A stretch of DNA of 23,718 nucleotides, taken from the IMG/VR virus record IMGVR_UViG_3300042691_002384, positions 1 to 23,718 of that record; one strand, 5' to 3'. The translations under genes were made by a program, and so were the position numbers. Source of the DNA: a virus. The notes beneath the pieces are model-generated. The model did not search any database, had not been told where the DNA came from, and was given only the letters and a program-made list of their open reading frames with translations. Shown here one piece after another: positions 1 to 23,718 of the stretch (position 1 is the first letter of the stretch; every line of letters begins with the position of its first letter).

Positions 1-3000
1 GGAACACTGTTACTGCATGTAATTCTCTCCCAGAATCTGCCAGCGTTAGTGATGCCATTTTTTTACCAGCCTTTGTAATTCTTGGCTTAAAAGATACAAC
101 AAACATCTCATCATCTTTATATGGTAACATTTTGTAATTTAAAAACTTAATTAGTGGATCCTTAGAGTCTTTTATTTCATCCACAGGTACTGCAGATACA
201 ACCCTATTATCATTTGCAAGAATAATATAAGAACGACCAGCCTCAACAACGGTATTTTCTTCATCAAATATACCAACACTTCCAGTTTTATCTAGCAACT
301 CTACCCTTGACCATCCTTTTGATCTCTTAATTGATTTTACCATACCCATCAAAATGAATGCACCTTTTTCTTCATACTCTTCAATATCATTTATGTATGC
401 ATAATAATGTTGTGGTATAGATATATTAAACTCAGGCAGATTGAGGTACTCGTATAAGTTTTCCTTAACTTTTGCAGAATCGGCTGGGTTATCTGGAAAT
501 GTAAGTGCACCAATAGCATTCATTGCCTGTAATGCTCTAGAGTTTACTCCGTTGCCTTTTGTAAATGTATATTCTTCAACTTCTGCAAAAGACTTAAAAG
601 GTCGTGCCGATAAATATCGTTCTGCAATCTTATCAGAGATAAATTTGATTGCCGAGAGTCCAAACCGAATACCCTTACCCTCAATTTTAAAATCAATATC
701 CGAATCGTTAATATGAGGTAGTTTAATGCTAATCCCCATTCTTTTCGCCTCAATAAGATATTCAGTTCGTGCATCTTTGTCCTTTTCATTTTTTAAAAGT
801 GCAAACATAAACTCAATTGGATAATGGTACTTTAACCATGCCGTCCAATACGAGAGCGTAGAGTAAGCAACCGCATGAGATTTGTTGAACGAATATCCCG
901 CATGTGCTTCAAAGTCATGCCATAAATCAAGAGCGTCATTAGGAGCAACATACTTAGAAGCACCTTTAATAAATTTATCTTTAAACTCATCAAACTCTCT
1001 CGCATCCTTTTTCTTTCCAATGATTTTACGAACCTTGTCAGCCTCTGCCATGCTCATACCGCCAAGTTCAACGCAAGCCTGCATAACCTGTTCCTGATAT
1101 AAAATACACCCATATGTTTCTTCTGTAAAGGGCTTAAGGATCTGATGTAGGTAGTTAATATTTTGACGACCATGCTTACGAGCAATATAGTCTTTACCAA
1201 TAGTATTCATAGCACCTGGACGAACAAGAGCATTAGAAGCAGCAAGTTCAGCAAGATTTTTTACTCCCATTTTTACCAAAAGATTTGTATAAGGCGTGGC
1301 TTCGCACTGGAATACACCCTTTGTATATCCATCAGAAAGCATCTGATAAACATTTTTATCATTCATATCAATTTTAAGTAGATCTATTTTTCTATCATGT
1401 CTTTCTTCAATAATATCAAGAGTATCTTTAAGAACACTGAGAGTCTTTAGACCAAGAGCATCGATCTTAATTAAGCCAATTCTTTCTGCTTCTTCCATGT
1501 CTACTGCTACAACTGGAATACGCTCATCAGCCCCAGTTACATTTCTTGTTTCCATAGGAGCGTACTTAAAGATTGGCTCTTTACTTGTTACAACACCTGC
1601 AGCATGAATTCCTGTTCCACGAATACGACCACGAAGTTGTTCACCATACATGACAACCTCTGGATACTTTTCACGAAACCAAGAAGAGTTCTTAGATGTA
1701 CAAAAATCATCCCACGTATCTACGGTCTTTAAAACTTTATTTACATCTGGCAACGGTATATTCAAAGCACGAGAAACATCTCGCACAACACCTTTATCTT
1801 TAAATTCTAAAAATGTAGCAATAGATGCAACATGTCGATATTGTCTAACTAGATAATCTTTTACTTCGTCACGACGTGAATCCTGAATGTCTGAATCAAT
1901 ATCAGGAAAGTCATTACGCTCAGGATTGATAAAGCGGAAGAACAAAAGTTTATGCTCGATTGGATCGATATCTGTAATGCCAATTGAATAACAAAGAAGT
2001 GAGCCAGCAGAGGATCCACGACCTGGACCAACCATAATGCCCTCTTTCTTTGCCCAGTTAAGCATGTTACGAACAACTAGAAAATAAGGAGCAAAGTTCT
2101 TTTGATTAATAATTTCTAATTCTTCATCAAGACGATCTAGGTATTCTTTATTTGTATCAAGTCCACGCTCTTTCAAACCTTCAAGAGCAAGTTTGCGTAA
2201 TTCTTCTCCTGGCTTACGATACTGTACTGGCAATAGGTTTAGCCCTGACTGAATATCGTACTCTTCAACCTTGTCACAAATCTCAAGCGTAGATATAAAC
2301 ATTTCTTCATTGTCAATTCCATGCTTTAACATTGCATCTTTCATTTCTTGATAAGATAAAAGATGAATATCAAATGACTGAAATGACATTTGACGATCTG
2401 CACCATAAAGATAGTTAAGTCTTTCTATCATATCTTTATGCTTTTTAGATTTTTCGTATGTAACATCTTTCTGTAATTTTGCGTGTGTATTCAGGATAAG
2501 CATAAGTTCCTGAATTTCTTTTTGGTTGCTATCAGAATGATGACAGTCGGGGGTGACTACAAGTTTTACACCCAAAGATTTTGCTAATTCTACTAATCCT
2601 TTATTTACCTTTTCAGAGTTATGAGGCATTACCTCAATATAATAATCATCTCCAAAGGTTTCTTTGAACCATTTAATATGTTTCTTAGCAATTGCTAGTT
2701 CATCTAACTCTACTGCTTTTGCTACCCAGCCACTTAGGCAGGCAGAGGTTACAATAATTCCTTCTTTATATTTTGCTAATGTTTCAAAATCAAATCTTGG
2801 CTTACTAAAAAATCCTTCAGTCCAAGCAATTTCATTAATCTTATTTAGATTTTCTAAACCTTGTTGGTTCTTAGCGAGAAGGACTATATGATGATAATTT
2901 TGATCAAGAGGATCAGTGCGTTCTGCCTTTGCTCTCTTATCAGCCATATCTGTAGTCATATAACCCTCCACGCCAAGAATAGGCTTGATGCCTGCTTCTT

Positions 3001-3163
3001 TTGCAAGACGGTACATCTCACGGTGTCCAGATAATGTTCCATGATCTGTTATTGCAATTCCTGGCATACCCAGTTCAACTGCTCTATTTACATATTCTTG
3101 CGGAGTGGCCACACCATCCATTAAAGAATAATGGGTGTGGACATGAAGCCCAACGTAGTTCAT
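1..3163 (-). CDS. dnaE: DNA polymerase III alpha subunit (DnaE), 3' end cut by window edge
   Basis: This is the catalytic subunit of a C-family replicative polymerase, predicted to copy the phage genome. About 1054 codons are visible without a stop; the C-terminus lies beyond position 1. The N-terminal PHP domain shows H7, H9, D16, TDHG (39-42), E66, H91, C142, D206 and H208, the ligand set of metal-binding, proofreading PHP domains. The palm has the acidic motif PDIDSDI (D421, D423, D425) and IDALGLKTL with D568, matching the E. coli catalytic aspartates D401, D403 and D555. The fingers motif GYSFNKSHAVAYS follows, then a helix-hairpin-helix region near 830-885 and an OB-fold starting near 930. 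The ATG sits 3 bases after the SSB stop with no clear Shine-Dalgarno, so translation is probably coupled to SSB. Bacterial DnaE is about 1160-1180 residues, so roughly 100 residues are likely missing. The identification is firm. Confidence 0.96.
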   Translation of the reverse strand, partial: MNYVGLHVHTHYSLMDGVATPQEYVNRAVELGMPGIAITDHGTLSGHREMYRLAKEAGIKPILGVEGYMTTDMADKRAKAERTDPLDQNYHHIVLLAKNQQGLENLNKINEIAWTEGFFSKPRFDFETLAKYKEGIIVTSACLSGWVAKAVELDELAIAKKHIKWFKETFGDDYYIEVMPHNSEKVNKGLVELAKSLGVKLVVTPDCHHSDSNQKEIQELMLILNTHAKLQKDVTYEKSKKHKDMIERLNYLYGADRQMSFQSFDIHLLSYQEMKDAMLKHGIDNEEMFISTLEICDKVEEYDIQSGLNLLPVQYRKPGEELRKLALEGLKERGLDTNKEYLDRLDEELEIINQKNFAPYFLVVRNMLNWAKKEGIMVGPGRGSSAGSLLCYSIGITDIDPIEHKLLFFRFINPERNDFPDIDSDIQDSRRDEVKDYLVRQYRHVASIATFLEFKDKGVVRDVSRALNIPLPDVNKVLKTVDTWDDFCTSKNSSWFREKYPEVVMYGEQLRGRIRGTGIHAAGVVTSKEPIFKYAPMETRNVTGADERIPVVAVDMEEAERIGLIKIDALGLKTLSVLKDTLDIIEERHDRKIDLLKIDMNDKNVYQMLSDGYTKGVFQCEATPYTNLLVKMGVKNLAELAASNALVRPGAMNTIGKDYIARKHGRQNINYLHQILKPFTEETYGCILYQEQVMQACVELGGMSMAEADKVRKIIGKKKDAREFDEFKDKFIKGASKYVAPNDALDLWHDFEAHAGYSFNKSHAVAYSTLSYWTAWLKYHYPIEFMFALLKNEKDKDARTEYLIEAKRMGISIKLPHINDSDIDFKIEGKGIRFGLSAIKFISDKIAERYLSARPFKSFAEVEEYTFTKGNGVNSRALQAMNAIGALTFPDNPADSAKVKENLYEYLNLPEFNISIPQHYYAYINDIEEYEEKGAFILMGMVKSIKRSKGWSRVELLDKTGSVGIFDEENTVVEAGRSYIILANDNRVVSAVPVDEIKDSKDPLIKFLNYKMLPYKDDEMFVVSFKPRITKAGKKMASLTLADSGRELHAVTVF

Positions 3164-3166
3164 TAA

Positions 3167-3820
3167 TTACCAATCAATGTTTGTAGCAGTTGTTGATGGA
3201 GTATCGAATCCAAAGTAAAATGCTTCTTGCTCTGGATATGGAACCTCACGAACTACCTTTTCAAGATTGAAGTATTCATGACCCTCCCATTTAAATGGTT
3301 CAGTGTCAGGTGTTGATGGAATAAGTGTGTAATTGGTTTCAGTTCCCTGTCCGTTACGCTTTAATTTCCACATTAGATTTGAGATGCTGCCTGTTTCAAG
3401 TGCATACTCACGAATTGTATTAAATGCAGACTGCTTGCTAATACCTTGTGACCATACTGCAATATATGGATCTTCTGTTCCATCATCTACAAGTACGTTT
3501 GTGTAGAAGCGAAGACGTGCTCTCCAGCCACTCTTTGGCTCTTTACGTGCCATTTCGCAACCAAAGCAGCGCCCCTCAGATTCCTGAGTACATGCAGCCT
3601 TGCGCTTATAGTCTTTTGGATTTGTATGCTCTGACACTACAACAGCAAGACCACGATCTTCGTTATAGTTTGCAGAGTCTGAGTCAAGTTCGTTTACAAA
3701 ACGAATTTTTGCTGCCTGTCCGTCAATTAACTTTACCCAACGGACCTTTGTTCCTGTGCTTTCATATTTTGGCTTTTCAACTAATGCGTTGATGTTTTTA
3801 AGCCCTTTTACTATAGTCAT
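3167..3820 (-). CDS. Single-stranded DNA-binding protein, gp32-like with zinc site
   Basis: This 217-residue protein probably coats single-stranded DNA at the phage replication fork. The best clue is a metal-ligand pattern of H65, C77, C85 and C88 (H-x11-C-x7-C-x2-C). T4 gp32 has nearly the same arrangement (H64, C77, C87, C90) inside its OB-fold core. Basic and aromatic residues surround the site (KRK at 72-74, then RARLRFY after the cysteines), as expected for a DNA cleft. The last 30 residues are rich in E, D, F, Y and W and end in NIDW. They could be a protein-interaction tail, though they are less acidic than the gp32 tail. It lies between primase and DnaE, which supports the role. A strong AAGGAG site precedes the ATG. 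The assignment rests on pattern and context, not overall identity. Confidence 0.78.
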   Translation of the reverse strand: MTIVKGLKNINALVEKPKYESTGTKVRWVKLIDGQAAKIRFVNELDSDSANYNEDRGLAVVVSEHTNPKDYKRKAACTQESEGRCFGCEMARKEPKSGWRARLRFYTNVLVDDGTEDPYIAVWSQGISKQSAFNTIREYALETGSISNLMWKLKRNGQGTETNYTLIPSTPDTEPFKWEGHEYFNLEKVVREVPYPEQEAFYFGFDTPSTTATNIDW

Positions 3821-3823
3821 GTT

Positions 3824-3837
3824 TCTCCTTATATAAG
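3824..3837 (-). promoter_or_regulatory. Strong ribosome binding site of the SSB gene, overlapping a palindrome
   Basis: On the minus strand this reads CTTATATAAGGAGA, four bases before the SSB ATG. The AAGGAG core is near-consensus. The first ten bases, CTTATATAAG, form a perfect palindrome sharing AAG with the Shine-Dalgarno. The other replication genes have weaker sites, which fits a need for much more SSB than helicase or polymerase. Confidence 0.6.
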
Positions 3838-3842
3838 TTTTT

Positions 3843-4766
3843 CTATTTTAACATAGCAATGATAGAGTTGTCAAACTGATATTCAAGTTTTCTAATAGCA
3901 TCATCATCCATATCACCGATATCTTTATATTGTTTATCTAACTTGATTACTGTCATTAGTGACCCTAATTTCTCAGTTAGGCGGTCAGCCATAATTGAGC
4001 CTGCTTCATCATTGTCTGCTACAAGCACAACATTATTGAAGTACTTCTCTAATAGTTTCATCTGGCTTGACGAAACATTAGCCCCCAGCGTAGCGACTGC
4101 GGGAAAACCAACTTGATCTAATCTAATTGCATCAAAGGATGATTCTACAATATATACAAACTTTGATGATTTTACTCTGTGCAGGTTAAATAATATTTTA
4201 CTTTTTGGAAGTCCTGGTGTATTTTTAAATTCTTTTCCCTCTATAGTCCTTGCAACAAAACCTATTGTCATACCGTCTGGAGATTGCATAGGTATTGCTA
4301 CTGAGTCTTGTTTTTCTGAATACCCCAAATCAAATTTAATGACAGACTCTTTAGTAATTCTTCTACCCTCAAAATATGACATAGCACGTGGAGACTCTAT
4401 AGCCTGCTTATTTAGTCTCTTTATTAATAATTCATCATACTGCACAAAATCGGGAGCAGCATAAAGAGCCTTGTTAACTATTGACTCAAGATCTGTCTCA
4501 ACTTCTTTACTTTTAATATATCTAATAGATTCAAAATAAGATCTACCAGTCATATGCATAATTAATTCTGTTAAGTTTTTTGTAGTCTGACAGCCAAAGC
4601 AAAAGAATAATCCAGACTCTTTAGATACCTCGCCAGCGGGAGTACGGTTATTATTGTGGTACGGACAAAAGATAATATAATCAGTACCGTATTCGGCCTC
4701 TATATCTATACCTGCACCAGTTAGTACTCTATGTATCTGTTGTGTTGTATATATGTCTTTAAGCAT
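3843..4766 (-). CDS. dnaG: DnaG-type primase with CHC2 zinc finger and TOPRIM domain
   Basis: This enzyme makes RNA primers for lagging-strand synthesis. With the ATG at 4766 it is 307 residues, shorter than bacterial DnaG (about 600), and appears to lack the C-terminal helicase-binding domain. The zinc finger shows C34, H37, C56 and C59, the CHC2 arrangement that recognises template DNA. The TOPRIM domain follows, with the acidic residue E208 (IVES) and the D251-N-D253 pair that bind catalytic metal. The frame is open further upstream to a TTG at 4808. The ATG is preferred because it lies in an ATGCTTAA overlap with the helicase stop, a typical coupled start, and because the extra 14 residues are encoded inside the helicase end and look unconserved. 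It sits immediately behind DnaB and before SSB. Confidence 0.93.
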   Translation of the reverse strand: MLKDIYTTQQIHRVLTGAGIDIEAEYGTDYIIFCPYHNNNRTPAGEVSKESGLFFCFGCQTTKNLTELIMHMTGRSYFESIRYIKSKEVETDLESIVNKALYAAPDFVQYDELLIKRLNKQAIESPRAMSYFEGRRITKESVIKFDLGYSEKQDSVAIPMQSPDGMTIGFVARTIEGKEFKNTPGLPKSKILFNLHRVKSSKFVYIVESSFDAIRLDQVGFPAVATLGANVSSSQMKLLEKYFNNVVLVADNDEAGSIMADRLTEKLGSLMTVIKLDKQYKDIGDMDDDAIRKLEYQFDNSIIAMLK

Positions 4767-5985
4767 TTTTGTCTTCGTAATCTTTATATTTATAATATCC
4801 CTTATCAAAGTCTGCTTGTATTAAAAAGTCTCCCATAAATCCGTTACGATTTTTTCTAAACGCACATTCAATTATATCACTGTTGTTTGCACGACCTAGT
4901 GCTAGAACCCAGTCGGCGTCGTAAGCAATTTGTCTTGACCAAGATGTTTGGCCAAGTGTTGGAACTGTGCTCATGTTAGTAACATCGTCTGGAGTTGCAG
5001 AAGAAATTGCAATAATGGGAACTTCTTCACTAATTGACATAAGTTTTAATTCACGAGAAAGGTTTTTCATACGTACTGTTTCATTATCAGACTTTTGATT
5101 TGGCGCCATAAGTTGTAGGTAATCTACAATTATAAAGTCTGGTCGATACTGATCAATTTTTCCACGAATAACTGACGGATTAATTTCTCCACCACTATCA
5201 TTAGAAATAATATGAAATGGTGGCTTACCAGCAATCTTGCTGTCGTGCCACTTCTTTAACATATCTATTTCAATATCTCCATTAGAGATTTTACGGTGTG
5301 ACCATAATCCTTCACCCATAATCGCAAATACACGATTACGAACTTCTGTCTCAGACATTTCAAGACTTATGATCATTGGTGTCTTGCCCTGTTTCCATGC
5401 CTGTACGGCAAAGTAAAGAGCAAGCCAGGACTTGCCAATACCTGGATATGCCAAGAATATCCCCAGTTGACCTGGCATAATTCCTGAAGGAAGGTAATTG
5501 TCAAATCCTGGCAAGCCTGTCTTAATTCCAATCTTACCAAGTTCTTGTTGCTTCTTTACATTTTCAAAATAAGCAATTGCAGATTGAATATCGGTTGCAT
5601 CGATATCACGTATAGCAGATGTGTTTTTCTTTAACTCAGAAGTCTTTGTAATTAATTGTTCTAGTGCTTTTACACCTTGTCCACCCTGGACTTCTGTAGC
5701 AGCATTACGAATAATGTCTTTAAGGCTATCATTTAAATAATCTGCTTGTAATTCTTCTAGGTGGTGCTTTGTTGTACCCACACCAGCAACGGGAGCAAAA
5801 TCTCTAAATTTTTCAACTACTAAAGAAGATGGCGGAACAGTTCCATTGCTTTCTGCATATCGCTTGATAAAATTCCATACATCATTATGAGTTCTTAAAA
5901 GCCCATCTATATTGGCTTGAAGTAGAACATGGACCTGTTTATCTTCTAATACCGCACTAATTACTTTTGCTTCTGAATTACTCAC
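4759..5985 (-). CDS. dnaB: DnaB-type replicative DNA helicase
   Basis: This 408-residue hexameric helicase is predicted to unwind the phage fork, moving 5' to 3' on the lagging strand. Residues 1-100 are mainly helical, like the DnaB N-terminal domain. The RecA-like motor follows: Walker A AYPGIGKS at 179-186 (K185), the ISLEMSE motif with the likely catalytic glutamate, and Walker B FIIVDYLQLM with D288. A SWSRQIAYDADWVLAL segment fits the later DnaB motifs. The start is GTG at 5985, set in the overlap GTGAGTAA with the preceding gene's stop, with AGGAAG upstream. The 3' end overlaps the primase start by 8 bases. Both overlaps suggest coupled translation of the upstream small protein, helicase and primase in fixed proportion. 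Confidence 0.95.
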   Translation of the reverse strand: MSNSEAKVISAVLEDKQVHVLLQANIDGLLRTHNDVWNFIKRYAESNGTVPPSSLVVEKFRDFAPVAGVGTTKHHLEELQADYLNDSLKDIIRNAATEVQGGQGVKALEQLITKTSELKKNTSAIRDIDATDIQSAIAYFENVKKQQELGKIGIKTGLPGFDNYLPSGIMPGQLGIFLAYPGIGKSWLALYFAVQAWKQGKTPMIISLEMSETEVRNRVFAIMGEGLWSHRKISNGDIEIDMLKKWHDSKIAGKPPFHIISNDSGGEINPSVIRGKIDQYRPDFIIVDYLQLMAPNQKSDNETVRMKNLSRELKLMSISEEVPIIAISSATPDDVTNMSTVPTLGQTSWSRQIAYDADWVLALGRANNSDIIECAFRKNRNGFMGDFLIQADFDKGYYKYKDYEDKNA

Positions 5986-6286
5986 TCAACCACTTCCTAG
6001 CCAATTTTCTACGCTCTGCTCTCTCTTTTAAATCTTGTTCTGTAGCCATTCTACCATTAAGAATTTGCTGTGCATTGTAAGCAAAAAAGTTCCATGTAGG
6101 ATATTGCACAATATTAAAATAATATTCTAATAAGTCATAGCAGGCACTAAGCCCATAAGATTCTACAAGGGCATCAGCAGCCCACTGCTCAACATTAAGA
6201 TTGAGATTAGACTTTTGCTCGTATCTCTGCAAGTGAAGTTTATTGTAGCGACTGAGCAAAGCCATACGGTCTTTGCGGTCTGCCAT
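5978..6286 (-). CDS. Small protein of unknown function, upstream of and overlapping helicase
   Basis: This 102-residue protein is not recognised. It is highly charged at both ends (an RKDR-rich N-terminus and a C-terminal KERAERRKLARKW helix), with an aromatic middle (YYFNIVQYPTWNFFAYNAQQIL) that looks helical. It starts with ATG two bases after the previous stop, behind a CAGGAA site. Its own stop lies inside the start of the DnaB gene in an 8-base overlap. That tight coupling suggests a job with the helicase, such as a loader or accessory factor. Phage helicase loaders are often small, basic and encoded next to DnaB. No motif proves this, so function is left open. Confidence 0.85.
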   Translation of the reverse strand: MADRKDRMALLSRYNKLHLQRYEQKSNLNLNVEQWAADALVESYGLSACYDLLEYYFNIVQYPTWNFFAYNAQQILNGRMATEQDLKERAERRKLARKWLSE

Positions 6287-7217: not shown

Positions 7218-7661
7218 TTAATTAGGAATGCCAATAACAATTAGATGGACTGCTAGAGAAAGATCTCCAGAAGCACCGAATCTAACAATGCCTTCCACTC
7301 TTGAAGTTGTTACAGATTTTAAAATTACTGTAACATTTTGTCCCGCTGGTGTATTTCCAATATTTAAAGCAGTAGCAGTAGCAATTGGCGCATACTTAAA
7401 GTCAGATGGGAAATCATAAGAAAATGTCTTTTCATTTCCTGCGCTGACAGTTGAATTATTAGCAACCTCAACATAACCACCAACTACTCTAGCCTCAGAT
7501 GTTTTAATGCTTTGTCTGCCCGCACTGGTTGTATCTACGGTTGTATAGTTATACGTCGCAGAAGAAACCTGTGTAGATAGGTCATTTAATGTATCGGCCA
7601 ACTGATAAATGTATGTAACATCTAAAGGTTGTCCTCGTTCTGGTAGCGGTACTTTAGCCAT
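7218..7661 (-). CDS. Virion tail-tip or fibre protein with beta-sandwich C-terminus
   Basis: This 147-residue protein has a helical N-terminus of about 35 residues containing PLPERGQPLDVTYIYQLAD, a type seen in structural proteins of tailed phages. A small-residue linker follows, then a region rich in alternating beta strands (about 60-147) ending in HLIVIGIPN. The layout suggests a trimeric fibre: a short coiled coil for assembly and a beta domain for display or carbohydrate binding. A GGAGA ribosome binding site lies before the ATG. It is the last of the tail genes in transcription order. The structural assignment is fairly safe; receptor binding is inference. Confidence 0.68.
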   Translation of the reverse strand: MAKVPLPERGQPLDVTYIYQLADTLNDLSTQVSSATYNYTTVDTTSAGRQSIKTSEARVVGGYVEVANNSTVSAGNEKTFSYDFPSDFKYAPIATATALNIGNTPAGQNVTVILKSVTTSRVEGIVRFGASGDLSLAVHLIVIGIPN

Positions 7662-7678
7662 ATATCTCCATTATATCA

Positions 7679-14478: not shown

Positions 14479-15126
14479 TTAAACCTCTTCTAGGGTTAGA
14501 TTTATATTCCAAAAATCATATGTGCTACCACCACGTTTTACAACAGAATAATTAAAATCTGCAAAGTATACCTGAATAATTTGGTTATATTGTGCTAAAT
14601 GTCCAAATGAAGCATCTGTAATTTCTCCACCTGTTTTAAAATTACTGTATTTATCATATGCTAGATACATCCAAAATGGTCCAGGATGTGATTGATACCA
14701 ATCTAATATTGCTACTCCACCTGCCCCACCATCCGTTGTAAATTCTCCAGATGTATTTTGATATGGTGAAATACCATTAGAATTAAAATCTGCTACCTCA
14801 AAATATGCACGGGATGGAAGCATATTCCAAGACATAGTTATGCTGAGTTTATCTGCAATATGATATGATCGCATACGACCATTAATTGTACGCTGACGCT
14901 TTTCTATTCTTTGTTGATTAAAATTAATTTCTCCACGATTATTATCTGATAGTATTAAAAATTGATCAATTAAATCTTCGTCTGTACCACCTGGAACTAC
15001 TGCCCCAACCTCATAGCCATTTGGAACATAAAGTCCACCAGTTAATGTACCTGCATTATTGGCCCACAGGACAGCCTCTGGGCGTTGGTATCTTTTACGA
15101 CCTGTTAAATATGCTGCGGTAGCCAT
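14479..15126 (-). CDS. Distal-tail-like minor tail protein
   Basis: This 215-residue protein occupies the position of the distal tail protein (Dit), between tape measure and hub. Such proteins form a ring joining tube and tip. The N-terminal 110 residues include a YRKRYQRPEAVLW-like basic start and beta strands (KLSITMSWNMLPSRAYFEV). The remainder has LDWYQSHPGPFWMYLAYDKY and closes with strands ending in NINLTLEEV. Similar strings occur in minor tail proteins of actinobacterial phages, by recollection. The ATG overlaps the tape-measure stop by one base (TAATG), so it is translationally coupled. The Dit role is inferred from place more than sequence. Confidence 0.72.
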   Translation of the reverse strand: MATAAYLTGRKRYQRPEAVLWANNAGTLTGGLYVPNGYEVGAVVPGGTDEDLIDQFLILSDNNRGEINFNQQRIEKRQRTINGRMRSYHIADKLSITMSWNMLPSRAYFEVADFNSNGISPYQNTSGEFTTDGGAGGVAILDWYQSHPGPFWMYLAYDKYSNFKTGGEITDASFGHLAQYNQIIQVYFADFNYSVVKRGGSTYDFWNINLTLEEV

Positions 15127-18100
15127 TATGAAATCCTCTGCACTTTAATTCTTTGTGAATCGATTTGTTTAATCTGAGTCATTACGGCCCTTGCTATTTC
15201 TTCAGGGTTAGATCCAGACCTAACATTTACATTTACACTATAATTATACACGCTATCTGCCGAAGATTCTCCATTATTCATTGCTTTTAATTTATCAACG
15301 CCATAACTATTTACAGCATATTTACTCATTATAAATTCGCCAGGTGATAGCATTGCTGGTATTTTATCTGTTCCTCTAGCAAGACCTCCGACAGACATAT
15401 ATTTTGGTTTTATGAAACCACCCTTTGACATAAATAGTTCATCACCTCTACCACCGCTGCCAACTATAGGCTGTGATCCTACAAGAGGTGACAAGCCCAA
15501 CATTTGCCTTATGCGATCTCTCTCATCCACAACAACTTCGGGTGATGATCCAAATTTTAATTTATCGTTAAGTTCATCAATTTGTTCTTTAAGTTTAAAG
15601 TTTAACGCTGTTCCTTTTTCTGTTGAATCACGAAGGTCTTGTAAACTTTCTATTTGATTTAAAATATTTTGATTATTTTGTTGAAGCGCAGAATTATTAT
15701 TCTGCTGGTTTTGATTTTGGTTTTGTCCATTATTTCCACCATTATTTCCACCATTATTGCCTCCAGCGCCTCCAGCAGCCATTGCTGAGGCAGCATCTTT
15801 TGCTGCTTTAGCAATATCTTTCCACTTTTGCTCTATACCTGCAAGCAGTCCAATTGTTGCAGTTATTACATCATTGTATTCTCCAGCAGCAATTTTTGCA
15901 GCGATTTCTGCATCGGCTGCTGCTTCCCATGCATCTTTTTGTGCATCAATATTATCAAGGCGAGCCTGTAGTTCATTTTTAATTGTAGTTAGAGCATCTT
16001 GTGCTTCTTTTAATTTTTGTTGAGCAAGAACAAGATTTTCACTATCTGCAACATTAATACCATTTTTGATATTGTAAACTTTATCTTCAAGATCACGAAT
16101 CTGTATAAGATTTGCTTCTCTTTGTTCTTCAAGCAAATAAATCTGATCTTCAATAATACGAATCTGCTCTTGAGTAGCCTTTTGTGCTTCTTGATATTGA
16201 TAAATCTGATCTTGCTTAACACGAATTTGTTCCTGTAGGGGTATTCTTGCTTGCTCTAATGCATAAATCTGATCTTGTTTTAGAAGAATTTGTGCTTGTA
16301 CCGTCTCACGCTGCTCTTCTAACATAAATACTTGCTGGCTAATCTCAAATTGACGTTGTTCAACTTGAATCCTTGTTAAGCCTTGGCGTGTACGTAAAGC
16401 ATCTATTTCGGCCTGACGTGCAGCATCAATATTTCCAGAAGATCTTTCTTGTGCTGCCTGTGCTGCATCTGCTCTTGCCTGTTGTACAGCCTGTGCTGCA
16501 GCAGCAATATCTCCTTGAGAAAGAGCATCGGCAATACTGAGTTGTGATTTTTGCTGAGAAGATATCTGTTCATTAATGTCATTAATTTTTTGAAGCGCTT
16601 GTTCTTGTGCATCATATTTATCATTAATTTGTTGTGCAGCACGATCCATTAATTCTAGTTCATTGGCAAGGTCAGAGGACTCTTCTTGTAGCGCTGCAAT
16701 TGGGCGCTCAAAGCCAAGTTCAATACTACGTTGCATTGCTTCAATATCAGCCTGTAGTCCCGCTATTGGTCTATCAAAACTAATTTCTATCTGTCTTTCA
16801 ATAGAATTTATCTGCTCATTCAAAGCCTCTATTGGTCTTTCAAAATTCATCTCCATTGTACGTTGTAGATCAGATATCTGCTCTTGAAACGCTTCTATTG
16901 GTCTAGAAAGTTCTAATTCAGTTTTGCGCTGTAATGATTCAATATTTCTTTCATACCCGTCAATAATGCTTTGAACTCTATCAACTGCAGCCTGTGCTGC
17001 TTCTACTTCTTGTTCAGCCTTTATAATTTTTGGCTTATATTCACGCTGTGCCGATCTTTCAAGGAATCCAAATAACTCATCTGCCTTACGACGCAACTCT
17101 TCTTTAGCATCATCTGAAGTAATACCAAGAACAATGTCTATTTTCTTTAATTCTGGAATTTCCTTAATATATTTAGCCAGTTGTTCGGAGTCAATCTTAC
17201 CATCTTTAAGATCTTGAATAAATGCCCTTGCTAAATCTGGATTAGAAAATATTTCTTTAATATCTTCTGCATTAAGGCCAATCTTTTCTAGTAATGGAAC
17301 TATTGCAGCAAACTGCTTCTTTAATTGTAATTCTGCTGTCCTACCCTCAAAGAATTTTAATAGTTCACTACTTAGTAATTCTGTATTAACTTCTTTAATT
17401 AATTTAAGTAATGCTTTCCATTCTGGAGTTCCAACTTTAGTTGTAGCAATAGCAGCAGCAAGAATGGGATTAGAGGCTATTTCAAATGCTCTACCAGTTT
17501 CTACGCCAGCCTTTTGTAGTCTGGAGAAGGCCTCTTGTGATTGAATCAGTTGCTTTCTTTGCTCTTTTAATTCTTCAATGGCCTTTTGATATGCAGACTT
17601 TTCTCCATCTCCTCCACCAGTTACAGTGCCAAGTTCTTTTGCAACAATTTCACGAATTTCTTTAAGATCTTTTATATCTTGTTTAATTTTTGCACGTACT
17701 CTGGTTGCTGCACGTTGAGCACCACCATCTAGTGATGTTTCTGCAATCTTTAAAGCAGCAATCATTGCTGGTGTAATTGTTGTAACACCAAGCATTGCTG
17801 CCTCAACTAACAATAATTGATCTGAAGTATTTTTTAATCCAGCAACACTTTTTGCTAAATCTCCAGGAAGATTTTTAAACACTTGCTGTAGCAATAATGA
17901 TGCTTGTGGCACTGGCATATCCGAAATTGTTTTAGATATAGCACCAAAACTTTGATCAAACTCTTTTGCTGTTATTGTTCCATTTGCCAACTGGCCAGAA
18001 ATACCATTTAGCACTCCAGCAATTGCTTTAGAAGTTGTAGAAAGAGTTTTCTTTAAGTCTTTTGACAATGTTTCTTGAGTCCAAGTTACTAACTCACCAG

Positions 18101-21100
18101 TGGCATAACTAACCGCACTATTTGTTTGTGATGTATAACCTGTAGCAAAATCCTTACCTAAAGACTCACCAAGTTTAGTTATTGTGGCTTTTAGTTCAGC
18201 CTGACCCTTTTCTGTTTTTAAATCTATGTTGGCAAAATCAAGATTTAGATTAACCTTGCCAGACTCTTCTTGTAGAGCCTTTAGTATAAGATTAATCTGC
18301 TCTTTTGCAAATCCTTTACCCTTTAATTGAACAGCAAGAGAATTAAATATTAGTTGTGCTTCTTCTGTTGTAGCCTCTCTTAAAGAATTAATGTCATTCT
18401 TAAACTGATTCAAGAAATCTTGGTTTTCTCTTAGTTCATCAAGTTTAGTCCTAGTTTCTGTATTTACTACTAATGCAGGACCAGTTCTTTCTAAGGGAGT
18501 TGTTTGTGGTACAACCCCAAAAAAATCACCAAGAGTTTTAAGTTTATCCTTTGTAAGAAGCGCTGCATCTCCTAAACCTTCTATTGATAAACGCTCACGT
18601 TCTCTTGCAGCATTTACCATTTTAACAACTGCAACAGTACCTACAAGTGCTGTAGTTGCTAACCCAATAGGACCTAAGAATCTTGTAACTCCTACTGCTG
18701 CTCTTGCAATACTACCCAAAAATCCACTTCTAGAAGCAATTCCTTTACCATATGTAGCAAATGCCATTGCTTGTTTTGCTGCTGCTGTTCTTGTGGCAAT
18801 AAGCGCTGTAAACTGTGTTTGTGTTAATAGTTGAGTTACAGACATTAATGCAAACATAGCAAGATTTAATTTAGATACAACTCCTGCAAATTCTCCTAAT
18901 TTACCACCACTAAACGAGGCCAAGCCAGAAAGTGATCCTAATGCAAATGTTCCGCTCATTAATCCACGATTAAGTGTAGTCATTCTATCTTGAAAAGACC
19001 TAGAAGCCTTTACCATGTTTTCTGCAGAATCTTTTGTTGCTTGAGAAATAATTGCGGCATTTGCAACCTGAGTCATTGGAACTCCGCCACGAGTTTTTTC
19101 TACTGAGAAGTCTGTTCCTGGTGTTACTGGACCTTGTGTCCGTGCCCCTCTGCTTACACCACGAACTGCTTGTGTCGCAACTTGCTGTCCTGTTCTTGCA
19201 ACATCATCTGCCTGATTCATCATTCCAACAGAAAGGCCACGAGCAATATCTTCACCAATTGGAATTGTTCTCTTGGATGGAGACTGTGTGCCTGCTGCCA
19301 TCTTTGTTTCATTAATTATTGCATCTACGGCTTGTCTTGGTTGAGATCTAAATTCTTGCCTTGTATAACTTCCTGCTGGATTAAATGAACTTGCTGGACG
19401 TAACTTTCCTGGTGTGCTCTGGCTTTCACGTGCAATTGGTATACCACCAGCAAATATATTTCCTCCTGTTTGAGTAAATTCTCCAGAAGCAAGTCCTGCA
19501 CGAATATAGTCTGTATTTCTTACACCTGGCTCTGTTGATCTTGGCTGTACTCTTACCTGACCAACTTGCTGTGAAGCATTATCAAGCGCAGTTGTAACTC
19601 TGCCAAGAGCATCTGACATTCCCTTATATTTGTCAATTACTTCTCTTGTTGCCTGTGCTAAAAGATCATCACTTACTTTTTGATTCTCAGTTCCTTCTGC
19701 AAGAGCGACTGTTCTATCTAAAATTTCCTGTTCAACTGTATCAAGAGCAGCAACTATTTCAGGATCTTGAATATTTTCTCCGCCAGCCTTAACGCTTGAA
19801 AGCATTTTATTTGTTTTTGCTGACCACTGGGTACTAAATTCTTGAATAGAAGCAGTACCTTTTTCAAGCAATATATTTAGTGATTGTGGCAGTTCTGCAA
19901 CAAGGTTAGACACAACCTTAATAAATTGTGGATATTTAGCAGCAAGTTCTTCTAAACCTGCCATCTGTATTCCCTGCATAAACTGTTGTGATCCAGCAGC
20001 GAATGGTTTTGTTAAGTGGGCACGAGCAGTTCCAAGTCTACCCTGCTGGAATCCTGGAATATTTCCTGCAATAATTCCTTGAATTAAAGCACCATACTGT
20101 TTTGTTTTATCTGCTGGAATAACTGATTCTCCAGGTGTGAGCATTGCTGGTACTGTATCTTTATTTCCACTACCTGGAACAACAAATACACCCTTATTAT
20201 ATTTTTTAGGTGTTCTCATCATTGCAGGATTTTGCATTGCAAAGTTTGCACCAGCACGAGCAGCAGCCTGATATGCCAAAACTAGTTGATTTACAGCACC
20301 AGCCTCTGCATTAAATGTTTGTGTTAGTCTTGCATGTGATTGATCAAGAGAGTGTGCAACAGCAGCAGCATTCATTTGTTCTGCTGTTAAATACTGTGTT
20401 TGTTCTCCAAGAATTTGAGATTGTCCAGTTAATCTTAAATATCCCTGTCTTAGTATTAATGCACCCTTAAGAATATTTGCAATACCATTTGCAAGCAATC
20501 CAAATGTCATCAAAGCAACAGGTCCAATTGCTCCAATGGCAACTGTTAATACTACTATTGCTTTTTTAACTCCAGAAGACAGATTGTTAAACTTTTCTAA
20601 TATACCGCCAATAAATTCAACAATTGGTGTAACTGCTTCCAAGAATGACTGACCTACTGGAACAAGTGCTAATCTTAAACTTTCAACTGCAGCCCTAAAC
20701 TTATTCATGCTAGATTCTGCTGTCATACCTAACTCAGATTCAGCGATTGATGCTAGTTCTTCTGCAGAATATCCAGCCAAATCAAGAACACGAGCAGCCT
20801 GTGTTCCTCCAGCAGTTACGTTTTCAAATAGTGTTGACAAACGAGCAAACTGGAATTTACCAAACAACTGCTCAATTGCACGTGCACGAGTTAATGGATC
20901 AAGAGTGTCTAGTGCTTTAGCAAACTCAACTACTGTTGCTCTTAGATTTCCCTGGTTTCCTTCAACAATTTCTTTAATGTTGATTCCCATAGTCTTAAGC
21001 ATGTCTGCTGCTTTTTCAGTTGGATTAATTAATGCAGCAAGTCCAGACTTTAATGCGTTTGCACCTTCAGACGCATTAACACCACCTTGTTTCATAGCAG

Positions 21101-22187
21101 TAAGGAAAAAAGCAAGATCTTTTACATTACCGCCAAGTTGCATAATAACTGGTGCAACTTTTGGAATAGCAGTTGTAATATCGTCAAGAGATACAACAGT
21201 TTGGTTTTCAACTACGTTTAAGAAGTTAATAGATTCAGTTAAATCTTCATTTGATAATCTAAAAGCATTTTGCAAAGATATAGTAGTTTCAAGAGCCTTT
21301 TGTTGTTCAATTTGTCCCAGGACCTGAAGTCTTGTTGCTTCTGTTACCTGTCTTTGTAGATCTGCACCTTGAAAACCTGCGGCTGCTGCATCAGATGCTA
21401 AATTAACAGTATCAGCAACGGCAATACCATATCTAGTAAATACTTCTCCTAAAGCAACAATATCTTGAAATGCCTGCTCTCTTTCTGGTACTGGAGTAAA
21501 CAAGTCTCCATATACTTTTCTAAATTTAATAGCAGCATTTTCCATATCCATAAATACTCTTGAGGCAGTAACTCCAAGAGTGGCCAGTGGAAGTGTAAAG
21601 CCAACCATCAACTGACGGCCAGCCCACTGTGTATTCTTACCAAAGTTTAAAAGGTTTGTAGATCCCTGTCTAACTAACTGATTAAACAAAGCCTGTCTTT
21701 GTGCAGCAAGTTGTAACTGTGTAGACATACTAGACATGTCAAGTTCATTTGGAATAATAGCAATGGCTCGCATTGCTCCAGAGGCGTCACGCCCCATTTT
21801 AATATATTGTGTAGATAGCCTTTTTACATTTTCTTCTGCTACCTTATTTATTGTGTCAAATTCAGATTTAAATAACTTGCCAAATGTTTTTGTAGATGCT
21901 CCAGCAAAGCGAAAGTACTCTCGCATTGAAAATTTATTTTTTTCAAGAGAGTCTGTAAAAGATTCTGCTGTTGTTTTTATTGCTCGTAATTCTGCAGAGA
22001 AAGCACCAATAGCATTTACGCCATTAATGAAATTTCTCTGCAGATCACGTTGGGCTAGTGAAGCAGTCTCACTGCTTTTAGCAATTGAGGTATGAAATTG
22101 TGATATCTGACGCTGTAATGCTTTTAGTTGTGCTAATGCATTAGACGTATCAATATTAACGCCAATATTAGCATTAACGTCAGCCAC
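15126..22187 (-). CDS. Tape measure protein
   Basis: This 2353-residue protein sets tail length and is threaded inside the tail tube. Residues about 195-460 hold the TP901-type tape measure core (VGFTLPLATLGVTASRVFMD; GGVNASEGANALKSGLAALI). Hydrophobic, membrane-like segments lie near 536-575, 1105-1125 and 1170-1192. A PAMLTPGE motif is at about 678 and a second, PAMLSPGE, at about 2276. An SPSK...GEDIARGLSVG motif typical of tape measures is near 966. Residues about 1740-2060 are long coiled coils with 22-residue and then 21-residue repeats, followed by a Gly/Asn/Gln-rich linker at about 2137-2180. No peptidase or transglycosylase motif is seen. The start is GTG behind AGAGGTGA. Size and position just after the chaperones make the call firm. 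Confidence 0.96.
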   Translation of the reverse strand: MADVNANIGVNIDTSNALAQLKALQRQISQFHTSIAKSSETASLAQRDLQRNFINGVNAIGAFSAELRAIKTTAESFTDSLEKNKFSMREYFRFAGASTKTFGKLFKSEFDTINKVAEENVKRLSTQYIKMGRDASGAMRAIAIIPNELDMSSMSTQLQLAAQRQALFNQLVRQGSTNLLNFGKNTQWAGRQLMVGFTLPLATLGVTASRVFMDMENAAIKFRKVYGDLFTPVPEREQAFQDIVALGEVFTRYGIAVADTVNLASDAAAAGFQGADLQRQVTEATRLQVLGQIEQQKALETTISLQNAFRLSNEDLTESINFLNVVENQTVVSLDDITTAIPKVAPVIMQLGGNVKDLAFFLTAMKQGGVNASEGANALKSGLAALINPTEKAADMLKTMGINIKEIVEGNQGNLRATVVEFAKALDTLDPLTRARAIEQLFGKFQFARLSTLFENVTAGGTQAARVLDLAGYSAEELASIAESELGMTAESSMNKFRAAVESLRLALVPVGQSFLEAVTPIVEFIGGILEKFNNLSSGVKKAIVVLTVAIGAIGPVALMTFGLLANGIANILKGALILRQGYLRLTGQSQILGEQTQYLTAEQMNAAAVAHSLDQSHARLTQTFNAEAGAVNQLVLAYQAAARAGANFAMQNPAMMRTPKKYNKGVFVVPGSGNKDTVPAMLTPGESVIPADKTKQYGALIQGIIAGNIPGFQQGRLGTARAHLTKPFAAGSQQFMQGIQMAGLEELAAKYPQFIKVVSNLVAELPQSLNILLEKGTASIQEFSTQWSAKTNKMLSSVKAGGENIQDPEIVAALDTVEQEILDRTVALAEGTENQKVSDDLLAQATREVIDKYKGMSDALGRVTTALDNASQQVGQVRVQPRSTEPGVRNTDYIRAGLASGEFTQTGGNIFAGGIPIARESQSTPGKLRPASSFNPAGSYTRQEFRSQPRQAVDAIINETKMAAGTQSPSKRTIPIGEDIARGLSVGMMNQADDVARTGQQVATQAVRGVSRGARTQGPVTPGTDFSVEKTRGGVPMTQVANAAIISQATKDSAENMVKASRSFQDRMTTLNRGLMSGTFALGSLSGLASFSGGKLGEFAGVVSKLNLAMFALMSVTQLLTQTQFTALIATRTAAAKQAMAFATYGKGIASRSGFLGSIARAAVGVTRFLGPIGLATTALVGTVAVVKMVNAARERERLSIEGLGDAALLTKDKLKTLGDFFGVVPQTTPLERTGPALVVNTETRTKLDELRENQDFLNQFKNDINSLREATTEEAQLIFNSLAVQLKGKGFAKEQINLILKALQEESGKVNLNLDFANIDLKTEKGQAELKATITKLGESLGKDFATGYTSQTNSAVSYATGELVTWTQETLSKDLKKTLSTTSKAIAGVLNGISGQLANGTITAKEFDQSFGAISKTISDMPVPQASLLLQQVFKNLPGDLAKSVAGLKNTSDQLLLVEAAMLGVTTITPAMIAALKIAETSLDGGAQRAATRVRAKIKQDIKDLKEIREIVAKELGTVTGGGDGEKSAYQKAIEELKEQRKQLIQSQEAFSRLQKAGVETGRAFEIASNPILAAAIATTKVGTPEWKALLKLIKEVNTELLSSELLKFFEGRTAELQLKKQFAAIVPLLEKIGLNAEDIKEIFSNPDLARAFIQDLKDGKIDSEQLAKYIKEIPELKKIDIVLGITSDDAKEELRRKADELFGFLERSAQREYKPKIIKAEQEVEAAQAAVDRVQSIIDGYERNIESLQRKTELELSRPIEAFQEQISDLQRTMEMNFERPIEALNEQINSIERQIEISFDRPIAGLQADIEAMQRSIELGFERPIAALQEESSDLANELELMDRAAQQINDKYDAQEQALQKINDINEQISSQQKSQLSIADALSQGDIAAAAQAVQQARADAAQAAQERSSGNIDAARQAEIDALRTRQGLTRIQVEQRQFEISQQVFMLEEQRETVQAQILLKQDQIYALEQARIPLQEQIRVKQDQIYQYQEAQKATQEQIRIIEDQIYLLEEQREANLIQIRDLEDKVYNIKNGINVADSENLVLAQQKLKEAQDALTTIKNELQARLDNIDAQKDAWEAAADAEIAAKIAAGEYNDVITATIGLLAGIEQKWKDIAKAAKDAASAMAAGGAGGNNGGNNGGNNGQNQNQNQQNNNSALQQNNQNILNQIESLQDLRDSTEKGTALNFKLKEQIDELNDKLKFGSSPEVVVDERDRIRQMLGLSPLVGSQPIVGSGGRGDELFMSKGGFIKPKYMSVGGLARGTDKIPAMLSPGEFIMSKYAVNSYGVDKLKAMNNGESSADSVYNYSVNVNVRSGSNPEEIARAVMTQIKQIDSQRIKVQRIS
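15655..15764 (-). repeat. Gly/Asn/Gln low-complexity linker with 12-base repeats in tape measure gene
   Basis: The minus strand encodes GGNN units followed by a QN-rich run. At DNA level the 12-base unit GGTGGAAATAAT occurs twice exactly (15729-15752), with a third degenerate copy at 15753-15764. The protein is probably a flexible hinge between the coiled-coil part and the conserved C-terminal part. Such tandem units can expand or contract by slippage. Confidence 0.8.
16059..16373 (-). repeat. Five tandem 21-residue (63-base) coiled-coil repeats in tape measure protein
   Basis: Five consecutive units start at bases 16373, 16310, 16247, 16184 and 16121, exactly 63 bases apart. Each has a charged start (R or Q), a middle Q-x-QI-like part and a later block resembling KQDQIYxLEEQ. 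Twenty-one residues are three heptads, the repeat of an ordinary left-handed coiled coil. Confidence 0.88.
16641..16904 (-). repeat. Four tandem 22-residue (66-base) repeats in tape measure protein
   Basis: Units begin at bases 16904, 16838, 16772 and 16706, exactly 66 bases apart. Each starts RPI[EA], then a Q/N-E-x-I-like heptad portion, an R near the middle and an E-[LMI]-x-F-[ED] ending, except that the last unit diverges at its end. A partial unit precedes the first. Twenty-two residues equal two hendecads (11-mers), a pattern expected for a nearly straight or slightly right-handed coiled coil. Confidence 0.88.
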
Positions 22188-22209: not shown

Positions 22210-22521
22210 TTAATTGCTTAAATCGTCAGCAGCAGCAAGAGTTGTACCTGATGCAGCCTCTACGATTTTGTAAACGGTTGGCAAATCTAGAACTTCTTCT
22301 AGTTTTGATACATCAGCCAACTCTGGCTTGTATTGCTGCATAGCAATTGCTACACATTCTACAAGAAGAGTCATTGACTTTTCGTTATCATCCGCCACCG
22401 CCGCAACTCCCTCAAACTTCTTCATGAAAGGACGAAGAAGAGAAATTTTTAGAGGGCGGACTGAGATTTTTGTCCCGTCCATAAGCGTGAGTTCTTTAGA
22501 CTCATGCACAGTTGTCGCCAT
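22210..22521 (-). CDS. Short tail assembly chaperone (gpG-like paralogue)
   Basis: This 103-residue protein matches the first about 95 residues of the neighbouring 234-residue chaperone: both begin MAT, then a DGT motif, [VI]xPLKI, LR.FM, a D/E run, EC[VI], a QY.PE stretch and LPT[IV]YKI. In siphoviruses the short chaperone (lambda gpG) binds the tape measure before tube assembly. Here it is a gene of its own directly before the tape measure, with no room downstream for a frameshift extension. A perfect AGGAGG site six bases before ATG and an extended -10 promoter in the gap suggest strong expression. The residues after the domain (AAADDLSN) look like a simple truncation. Confidence 0.85.
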   Translation of the reverse strand: MATTVHESKELTLMDGTKISVRPLKISLLRPFMKKFEGVAAVADDNEKSMTLLVECVAIAMQQYKPELADVSKLEEVLDLPTVYKIVEAASGTTLAAADDLSN

Positions 22522-22526
22522 TATTT

Positions 22527-22540
22527 TCCTCCTATATAGG
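22527..22540 (-). promoter_or_regulatory. Consensus ribosome binding site of short chaperone, overlapping a palindrome
   Basis: The minus strand reads CCTATATAGGAGGA. AGGAGG (22533-22528) is consensus and six bases from the ATG. The ten-base palindrome CCTATATAGG shares its right arm with the binding site. The SSB gene has a very similar arrangement, which could matter for strength or regulation. Confidence 0.6.
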
Positions 22541-22548
22541 TTATGTTA

Positions 22549-22557
22549 ATTATAGCA
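22549..22557 (-). promoter_or_regulatory. Extended -10 promoter for short chaperone and tape measure genes
   Basis: The minus strand reads TGCTATAAT, a perfect extended -10 element, in the 57-base gap between the two chaperone genes, about 28 bases before the short chaperone ATG. A weak -35 candidate (TTTCAA, spacing 18) lies upstream. Extended -10 promoters tolerate a poor -35. Activity is inferred. Confidence 0.6.
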
Positions 22558-22578
22558 TAAAACGTCTATTTTTTGAAA

Positions 22579-23283
22579 TTATGCTTTCATAACAGATGGA
22601 TCTCGCATGTCATCATAATCTAGGCCCATGCCAATTCCAAATCCAACTTTTTTAGCATTTTCTCCTTGTAATGAAAGGATATCATTGCTGTCTTTTGCTT
22701 GGCCTTTACTAAATACCCTGGCCTTCATGTCTTCCCATTCTTTTTGCCCACGTTCTGCTCCTGTAGCCTTGTCTAAATCTACTCCCTGAATAGCAGCAAG
22801 AAACTTTCTTTCTTCATAATCTAACTCTCTTTTACTTTCCAGTGTAGTTAGTAACTCTGGCATCGATAAAGACTTTTCTAATTCTTGATAATCTTTCCAG
22901 ATACCGAGCAAAAACACTTCTGCCTCTAGTTTTGCTAAGTCTAAATCAGACCAACTTTTTCCACTATCTGTTGCCTGTTTTTTAACTGTTTCCTCTGATT
23001 TACTATTAATTTTAATTCCAGCAGCAATATCTAATATTTTATATATTGTTGGCAAATCTACATGGTCTTCAACCTCATTATGTATTTCTGGATAATATTG
23101 TTTCATGCATATTCTTACACATTCAGTTAGTTTTTCTATGGCTTCGTCGTCATCTTGAGACTTATGCACTTCTTCAAATGCAATCATAAAATCTCTAAGG
23201 TGTTTTATTTTTAATGGTACTATTTCTAATTCTGTACCATCAACTAAAAATATATTTGCACTATTATAAACTTCTGTAGCCAT
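22579..23283 (-). CDS. Long tail assembly chaperone (gpGT-like, single unshifted frame)
   Basis: This 234-residue protein has an N-terminal chaperone domain (residues 1-95) shared with the short gene and a C-terminal part (110-234) resembling the T part of frameshifted chaperones (LDLAKLEAEVFLLGIWKDYQ, DYEERKFLAAIQGVDLD, GFGIGMGLDY). In phage lambda the two parts are joined only by programmed frameshifting; here the join is in one continuous frame near residues 95-110. It follows the terminator behind the major tail gene, and only a weak GATAGA-like stretch precedes its ATG, so expression should be low. The MAT...DGT start shared with the paralogue supports the chosen start. Role: linking tape measure to tube subunits during tail assembly. 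Confidence 0.85.
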   Translation of the reverse strand: MATEVYNSANIFLVDGTELEIVPLKIKHLRDFMIAFEEVHKSQDDDEAIEKLTECVRICMKQYYPEIHNEVEDHVDLPTIYKILDIAAGIKINSKSEETVKKQATDSGKSWSDLDLAKLEAEVFLLGIWKDYQELEKSLSMPELLTTLESKRELDYEERKFLAAIQGVDLDKATGAERGQKEWEDMKARVFSKGQAKDSNDILSLQGENAKKVGFGIGMGLDYDDMRDPSVMKA

Positions 23284-23297
23284 TTTATCTATTCTAT

Positions 23298-23328
23298 CAT
23301 AACAACAAAGCCCACCGCTAGGGTGGGC
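23298..23328 (-). terminator. Rho-independent terminator after the major tail gene
   Basis: On the minus strand GCCCACC, loop CTAGC and GGTGGGC form a perfect seven-base-pair G/C-rich stem, followed by TTTGTTGTT. It sits in the 70-base gap between the major tail protein and the long chaperone. It should reduce read-through so that tube protein is made in excess of chaperones and tape measure. Confidence 0.85.
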
Positions 23329-23335
23329 CTGTCGT

Positions 23336-23353: not shown

Positions 23354-23718
23354 TTAAGATGCTGGTGCCCAGGTACGATCTACGATCTTACCATAGGAAG
23401 CCGAAGTATCTTCAGGAAGAAGACGGAAAGAAACCTCAAACATTGATGGTTCATCACGCTTTGCAGATACTGTTACGTTCTCAATTGAGAGCGCACGGTA
23501 TGCAGCGTAAACACGCTCAACATATGCGGAGTCTTCGCAATCTCCAGTTCCAGGACCTACAGCAACAATACCACGCTCAACTGGACACTCACCAATGTCT
23601 CCTGCGGAGAGATTTAGTGTTTGTCCTGCTGAAGTAGATTTTGTTCCTGATAGTTCAGAATCGCTGTAAGCAAGAGCCAAGAGAAGGTTCTCAAGGGTAG
23701 CCTCAGCAAAAGCAGTTG
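23354..23718 (-). CDS. Major tail (tube) protein, C-terminal part; start beyond the window
   Basis: About 121 residues are visible and the frame stays open to the right edge, so the gene is cut at its 5' end. A TTG at 23680 is not believed to be the start, because the frame continues upstream with a good helix (AFAEATLENLLLALAYSDSE). The rest is beta-rich, with ALSIENVTVSAKRDE and FEVSFRLLPED ending in DRTWAPAS. This style and the place directly upstream of the two chaperones and tape measure fit the tube protein of a siphovirus. The stop is followed by a second TAA, a hairpin and a terminator, as often seen after highly expressed structural genes. A different structural protein is possible but less likely. 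Confidence 0.78.
   Translation of the reverse strand, partial: TAFAEATLENLLLALAYSDSELSGTKSTSAGQTLNLSAGDIGECPVERGIVAVGPGTGDCEDSAYVERVYAAYRALSIENVTVSAKRDEPSMFEVSFRLLPEDTSASYGKIVDRTWAPAS

Follow-up and report, generated by a model that had tools for sequence, protein, structure and literature searches.

The programmed frameshift by which long-tailed phages obtain two forms of their tail assembly chaperone is widely conserved (PMC5009743) and serves as a marker for annotation. In phage lambda, the short form (gpG) and the extended form (gpGT) are present in a ratio of about 30:1, and this ratio matters for the phage (PMC5009743). In phage TP901-1, the fused form alone leads to non-infectious particles (PMC4493119). 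T4-like phages have been described as having separate genes for a short and a long chaperone (Vladimirov, Gautam and Davidson 2022, as cited in PMC10885494).

The DNA analysed here (hereafter, the window) comes from an uncultivated phage, of which it represents a 23.7 kb fragment, and all the features given below for it lie on its minus strand. In the direction of transcription, the following genes can be distinguished: (i) the 3′ part of a major tail protein gene of the Ig-domain type, open at the window edge (23354..23716; phrog_2175, E=9e-15), in a position equivalent to that of the annotated major tail protein of Streptomyces phages; (ii) a single continuous frame of 234 aa (22579..23283), predicted to encode a long tail assembly chaperone of the gpGT or TAC-NC type; (iii) a frame of 103 aa (22210..22521), predicted to encode a short chaperone of the gpG or TAC-N type; and (iv) a tape measure protein gene of 2353 aa (15126..22187; phrog_10030, tail length tape measure protein, E=1.4e-91; PF10145). 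After this tail module, genes for a DNA polymerase III alpha subunit (PHP domain), a DnaG-like primase and a DnaB-like helicase are found on the same strand (2-6286).

The preliminary description had proposed two separate paralogous genes, the short one repeating only the N-terminal domain of the long one, and the alignment of both proteins bears this out. In BLASTP, 43/97 residues are identical (44%) and 67% positive (E=1e-25), the identity spans nearly the entire short protein, and no meaningful match exists between the short protein and the C-terminal half of the long one. In the same way, phrog_10504 matches both proteins and phrog_10474 only the second half of the long protein. The latter can be divided into an N-terminal (G) domain (approximately residues 1-97; 22993..23283) and a C-terminal (T) domain (approximately residues 111-234; 22582..22953) homologous to the -1 frame ORF of the Streptomyces phages. 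The genome record holds exactly two copies, i.e. the long and the short gene. As in gpG/gpGT chaperones, the pair lies between the major tail protein and tape measure genes, and the short protein corresponds to the N domain of the longer form. Regarding structure, the HK97 tail assembly chaperone 2ob9 was a weak match to the low-confidence models of the long (rank 2, Z 4.2, rmsd 5.2, 82 aligned) and the short protein (rank 1, Z 4.6, rmsd 5.2, 88 aligned), the mean pLDDT of the models being 62 and 50; the folding input for the short protein consisted of the window and IMG/VR rows only. Foldseek returned nothing significant, and a PDB sequence search no useful match.

It is, in our view, highly probable that these two genes encode the tail assembly chaperone in its G and GT forms and that they derive from a duplicated frameshift gene; their start signals would set the ratio between both forms. 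This reading builds on observed homology, synteny, reading frames, slip-site loss, conserved signals and phylogeny, from which the chaperone function, the leaderless start and the protein ratio are inferred; everything said below on expression is likewise deduced from the sequence.

In a protein search of 50,697 phage records, the window proteins matched 127 Streptomyces phages and a few Rhodococcus phages. Homology to annotated Streptomyces tail assembly chaperones amounts to ~40% identity (best E ~1e-33), and with the short protein 124 records gave a hit, at a single place in each. The Streptomyces records examined belong to the Stanwilliamsviridae. In these Streptomyces phages, the two domains are encoded by separate ORFs, that of the C domain being in the -1 frame, and several records annotate them as a joined chaperone gene. 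Actually, when isolates and metagenomic relatives are taken together, the C domain is in the -1 frame, and the N domain present once, in 124/124 frameshift-type loci. A canonical slippery heptamer (X_XXY_YYZ) is placed in-frame at the junction in 61 of 79 distinct frameshift-type loci, being mostly CCCAAAC or CCCAAAT and, in some, GGGAAAA or GGGAAAC; the remaining 18 carry CCCGGAA at the junction, which is not a canonical heptamer. The Boydwoodruffvirinae (L001 and others) keep the -1 arrangement with CCCGGAA in place of the canonical heptamer. A prophage and host scan of the genome collection found no relative. The WhiB genes found in five of six large relatives point to Actinobacteria as the hosts, and the metagenome origin of the contigs suggests a mainly freshwater habitat.

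The same gene pair was sought in related phages and found at 137 distinct loci of uncultivated phages, at all of which the long gene is read in a single frame and the short gene stands apart from it. These loci are drawn from many metagenomes; their counts include related phages and should not be taken as independent events, the pair having probably originated once. The common layout rules out an assembly or contig artefact, and three apparently deviant loci (L026, L105, L134) are incomplete, cut by contig ends. In locus L299 (2214-2971), the long gene is split into two frames inside the C domain, which is either an assembly error or a real exception; its upstream box is also farther from the ATG, with a purine-rich stretch between them. 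Heptamers of the CCCAAAY/GGGAAAM type are absent from both genes (0/137 long, 0/137 short), and at none of the 137 loci does a heptamer ahead of the G stop go together with a -1 frame C domain. A frameshift extension of the short gene was rejected, given that, beyond its stop codon, the -1 frame stays open for a median of 6 codons. Since most of the distinct frameshift-type relatives have such a heptamer and none of the pairs does, an ancestral frameshifting gpG/gpGT gene appears to have given way to two genes, one for gpGT in a single frame and one for gpG only.

In the tree of the N domains, the short genes form one clade (99/97) and the long genes another one (100/99). The possibility raised beforehand that the short gene might be an independent family is refuted here, as its clade is nested among the frameshift-type genes of uncultivated phages. 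The long N domains branch outside the group formed by the short genes and their sister frameshift genes. A topology that unites the long and short genes is not rejected (p-AU 0.35), and the gene was therefore probably duplicated at about the time when the sister frameshift group split off. The genes of this group (L199, L203, L262-L280) have a promoter like that of the short gene and AGGAGG, yet the slip site is still present; several sister phages have in common with the short gene the very promoter TGCTATAAT plus AGGAGG, followed by a complete slip site and then the C domain. The trees of the C domain and of the tail protein place the pair-type and sister groups close together, neither of them resolving their order. 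In the tape measure tree, the N-terminal part of the frameshift phages L267/L270 falls with the duplicated-type L282/L289, which suggests that the tape measure gene has been exchanged between duplicated and frameshift groups. The chaperone and tape measure trees place the window, a 23.7 kb fragment, beside the Stanwilliamsviridae.

These trees also leave some room, although not much, for a different order of events, in which a frameshifting relative donated the short gene by recombination, or the duplication predates the sister split and the long copy was lost there. The position of the long N domains outside the short and sister N domains speaks for such an order, and the tape measure grouping just mentioned indicates that modular exchange occurs. 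Nevertheless, apart from the single clade that the data do not reject, the mean identity within groups is 0.74 for the short protein and 0.58 for the long N domain; because the long N domain evolves faster than the short protein, its deep branching may be a rate effect. Furthermore, distances to the sister group scale alike for the short protein, the long N domain and the C domain (mean identity of sister-group genes 63%, 45% and 59%, respectively). The short gene is the copy that stayed ancestor-like, with its promoter, strong Shine-Dalgarno and slower evolution, and the long gene is the changed copy, with its in-frame fusion, new start signals and faster N domain. The earlier idea of a gene duplication with loss of the C-terminal half is thus only half of the story: the short gene does lack the T domain, but the long gene has changed as well.

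The two genes differ in their start signals. A pattern scan revealed a terminator-like hairpin in the gap between the major tail protein and long chaperone genes (23308..23330), the segment 23284-23356 having a folding energy of -27.9 kcal/mol (z=-6.1); a hairpin of this kind stands 5′ of the long gene at 132/133 loci. An extended -10 box (TGATAGAAT; 23291..23299) lies in the window 7 nt 5′ of the ATG of the long gene, as a predicted leaderless promoter. At 133 of 136 loci, versus 0/124 frameshift loci, an extended -10 box (TGNTANAAT or TGNTATACT) is found 4-10 nt before the long ATG. This short distance, together with the lack of a Shine-Dalgarno in the long gene, leads to the prediction of a leaderless transcript. 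Leaderless mRNAs are common in Actinobacteria. In the literature, a search for leaderless starts in phage tail assembly chaperones yielded only general phage genome papers. Elsewhere in the window, another extended -10 box (TGATATAAT; 7670-7678) is situated 8 nt 5′ of the ATG of a 147 aa gene (7218-7661) and looks leaderless, but there is a GGAG in between.

The short gene has its own putative promoter, composed of an extended -10 box with the sequence given above for the sister phages (22549..22557) and a -35-like TTCAAA (22572-22577), as well as a strong Shine-Dalgarno, AGGAGG (22528..22533). At 134 of 137 loci, the promoter TGNTATAAT is located 23-37 nt 5′ of the short ATG, and there too the short gene has a strong AGGAGG. 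The median duplex with the anti-Shine-Dalgarno reaches -10.2 kcal/mol for the short gene versus -1.2 kcal/mol for the long one, the former being the stronger in 96/96 distinct loci. Third-codon G+C, too, is higher in the short gene than in the long one, in 95/96 loci. An inverted CCTA...TAGG overlaps the Shine-Dalgarno of the short gene (CCTATATAGGAGG; 22528-22543 in the window) in 55 of 84 distinct leaders versus 0/47 frameshift relatives, and could be a small hairpin over the ribosome site or an operator.

No terminator was found between the long and short genes in the pair loci and, therefore, long-gene transcripts should serve the short gene too. An excess of the short form is predicted from its consensus promoter, the read-through from the long gene and its strong Shine-Dalgarno, and a low level of GT from the weaker -10 box and the missing Shine-Dalgarno. 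These contrasting signals would constitute a concrete mechanism for an unequal chaperone ratio, which is likely set by transcription and initiation, not by recoding.

The following course of events is proposed. In the relatives, one gene gives both forms: most ribosomes stop after G, and a few slip -1 at CCCAAAC/T or GGGAAAA/C, thus adding T. In the lineage of the window, the chaperone gene would have been duplicated in tandem. The upstream copy would have lost the slip site to become a continuous GT frame with its own, probably leaderless, promoter; the downstream copy, adjoining the tape measure gene, would have kept the ancestral promoter and strong ribosome site and lost the T domain and slip site. 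With G abundant and GT scarce, the former would cover the tape measure protein and the latter would recruit the tail tube protein, as in lambda. In broader terms, there is a reasonable, if less firm, case that in a widespread lineage of freshwater actinobacterial phages frameshifting has been replaced by tandem duplication and asymmetric start signals (a leaderless, weak-promoter, rare GT and a leadered, strong Shine-Dalgarno, abundant G), control of the ratio having passed from elongation to transcription and initiation.

Purifying selection acts on both copies, with dN/dS values of ~0.16 for the short gene, ~0.25 for the long N domain and ~0.15 for the long C domain. These values bear on a second alternative, namely that the short protein has lost its chaperone activity and has taken on another role, e.g., as a regulator or a minor structural part. 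The protein has no Pfam match and its link with the tape measure protein is a predicted one; however, its sequence is better conserved than that of the long N domain, and its gene has kept the ancestral promoter, the ribosome site and the place beside the tape measure gene, all of which makes such a change of role very improbable. That the long gene itself still frameshifts to give the short product, the short gene being a supplement or having another function, is scarcely credible: its -1 frame closes soon after the junction, so that any slip there would give a G-like product, but none of the 137 long genes has a CCCAAA/GGGAAA heptamer, in-frame heptamers of any A/T type occur in only 9 of them without conservation, and a frameshift inside the long gene was consequently rejected for want of a conserved slip site.

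The frameshift is absent in the whole lineage, and its sister group keeps it with a similar promoter and an identical domain set. A lineage of this kind next to a frameshifting sister offers a natural experiment on whether the frameshift serves a fixed ratio or merely two products. For annotators, no frameshift should be forced on such loci, nor should the short gene be recorded as a “duplicate of unknown function”.

Among the known systems, the chaperones of the Stanwilliamsviridae (Streptomyces phages such as Bartholomune, Coruscant, Sham and Stigma) are the nearest to the pair: they have homologous N and C domains (phrog_10504 and phrog_10474), are also encoded between the major tail protein and tape measure genes, and are usually preceded by a terminator, with a promoter and a Shine-Dalgarno ahead of G. 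They differ from the pair in having a single-copy gene with the C domain in the -1 frame (124 records). The Rhodococcus phages Trina, NiceHouse and Francesca carry distant homologues in an equivalent position, annotated as tail assembly chaperones, but with a classical -1 frameshift site (GGGAAAA). With lambda gpG/gpGT the pair would share the division of labour between a short and an extended chaperone, predicted here from sequence, while lambda obtains both from one gene by a -1 slip, at the ratio already mentioned. Finally, the T4-like phages, as described in the paper that cites that work (PMC10885494), resemble the window in having a short gene and a long gene holding the short part, with no frameshift; the window pair likewise comprises a separate short gene, a fused long gene and no slip site. 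But those phages have contractile tails and, on that description, the likeness is one of working principle, the kinship found being with the Stanwilliamsviridae chaperones. Hence, the suggestion of an alternative solution to making two chaperone forms is supported by the present locus, but not as a new principle, since the two-gene arrangement has, according to that same paper, already been reported for T4-like phages. What is new here is its presence in a siphovirus-like lineage with contrasting start signals and a visible frameshifting sister group, in which the transition can be seen: close relatives with the slip show what the two-gene layout replaced.
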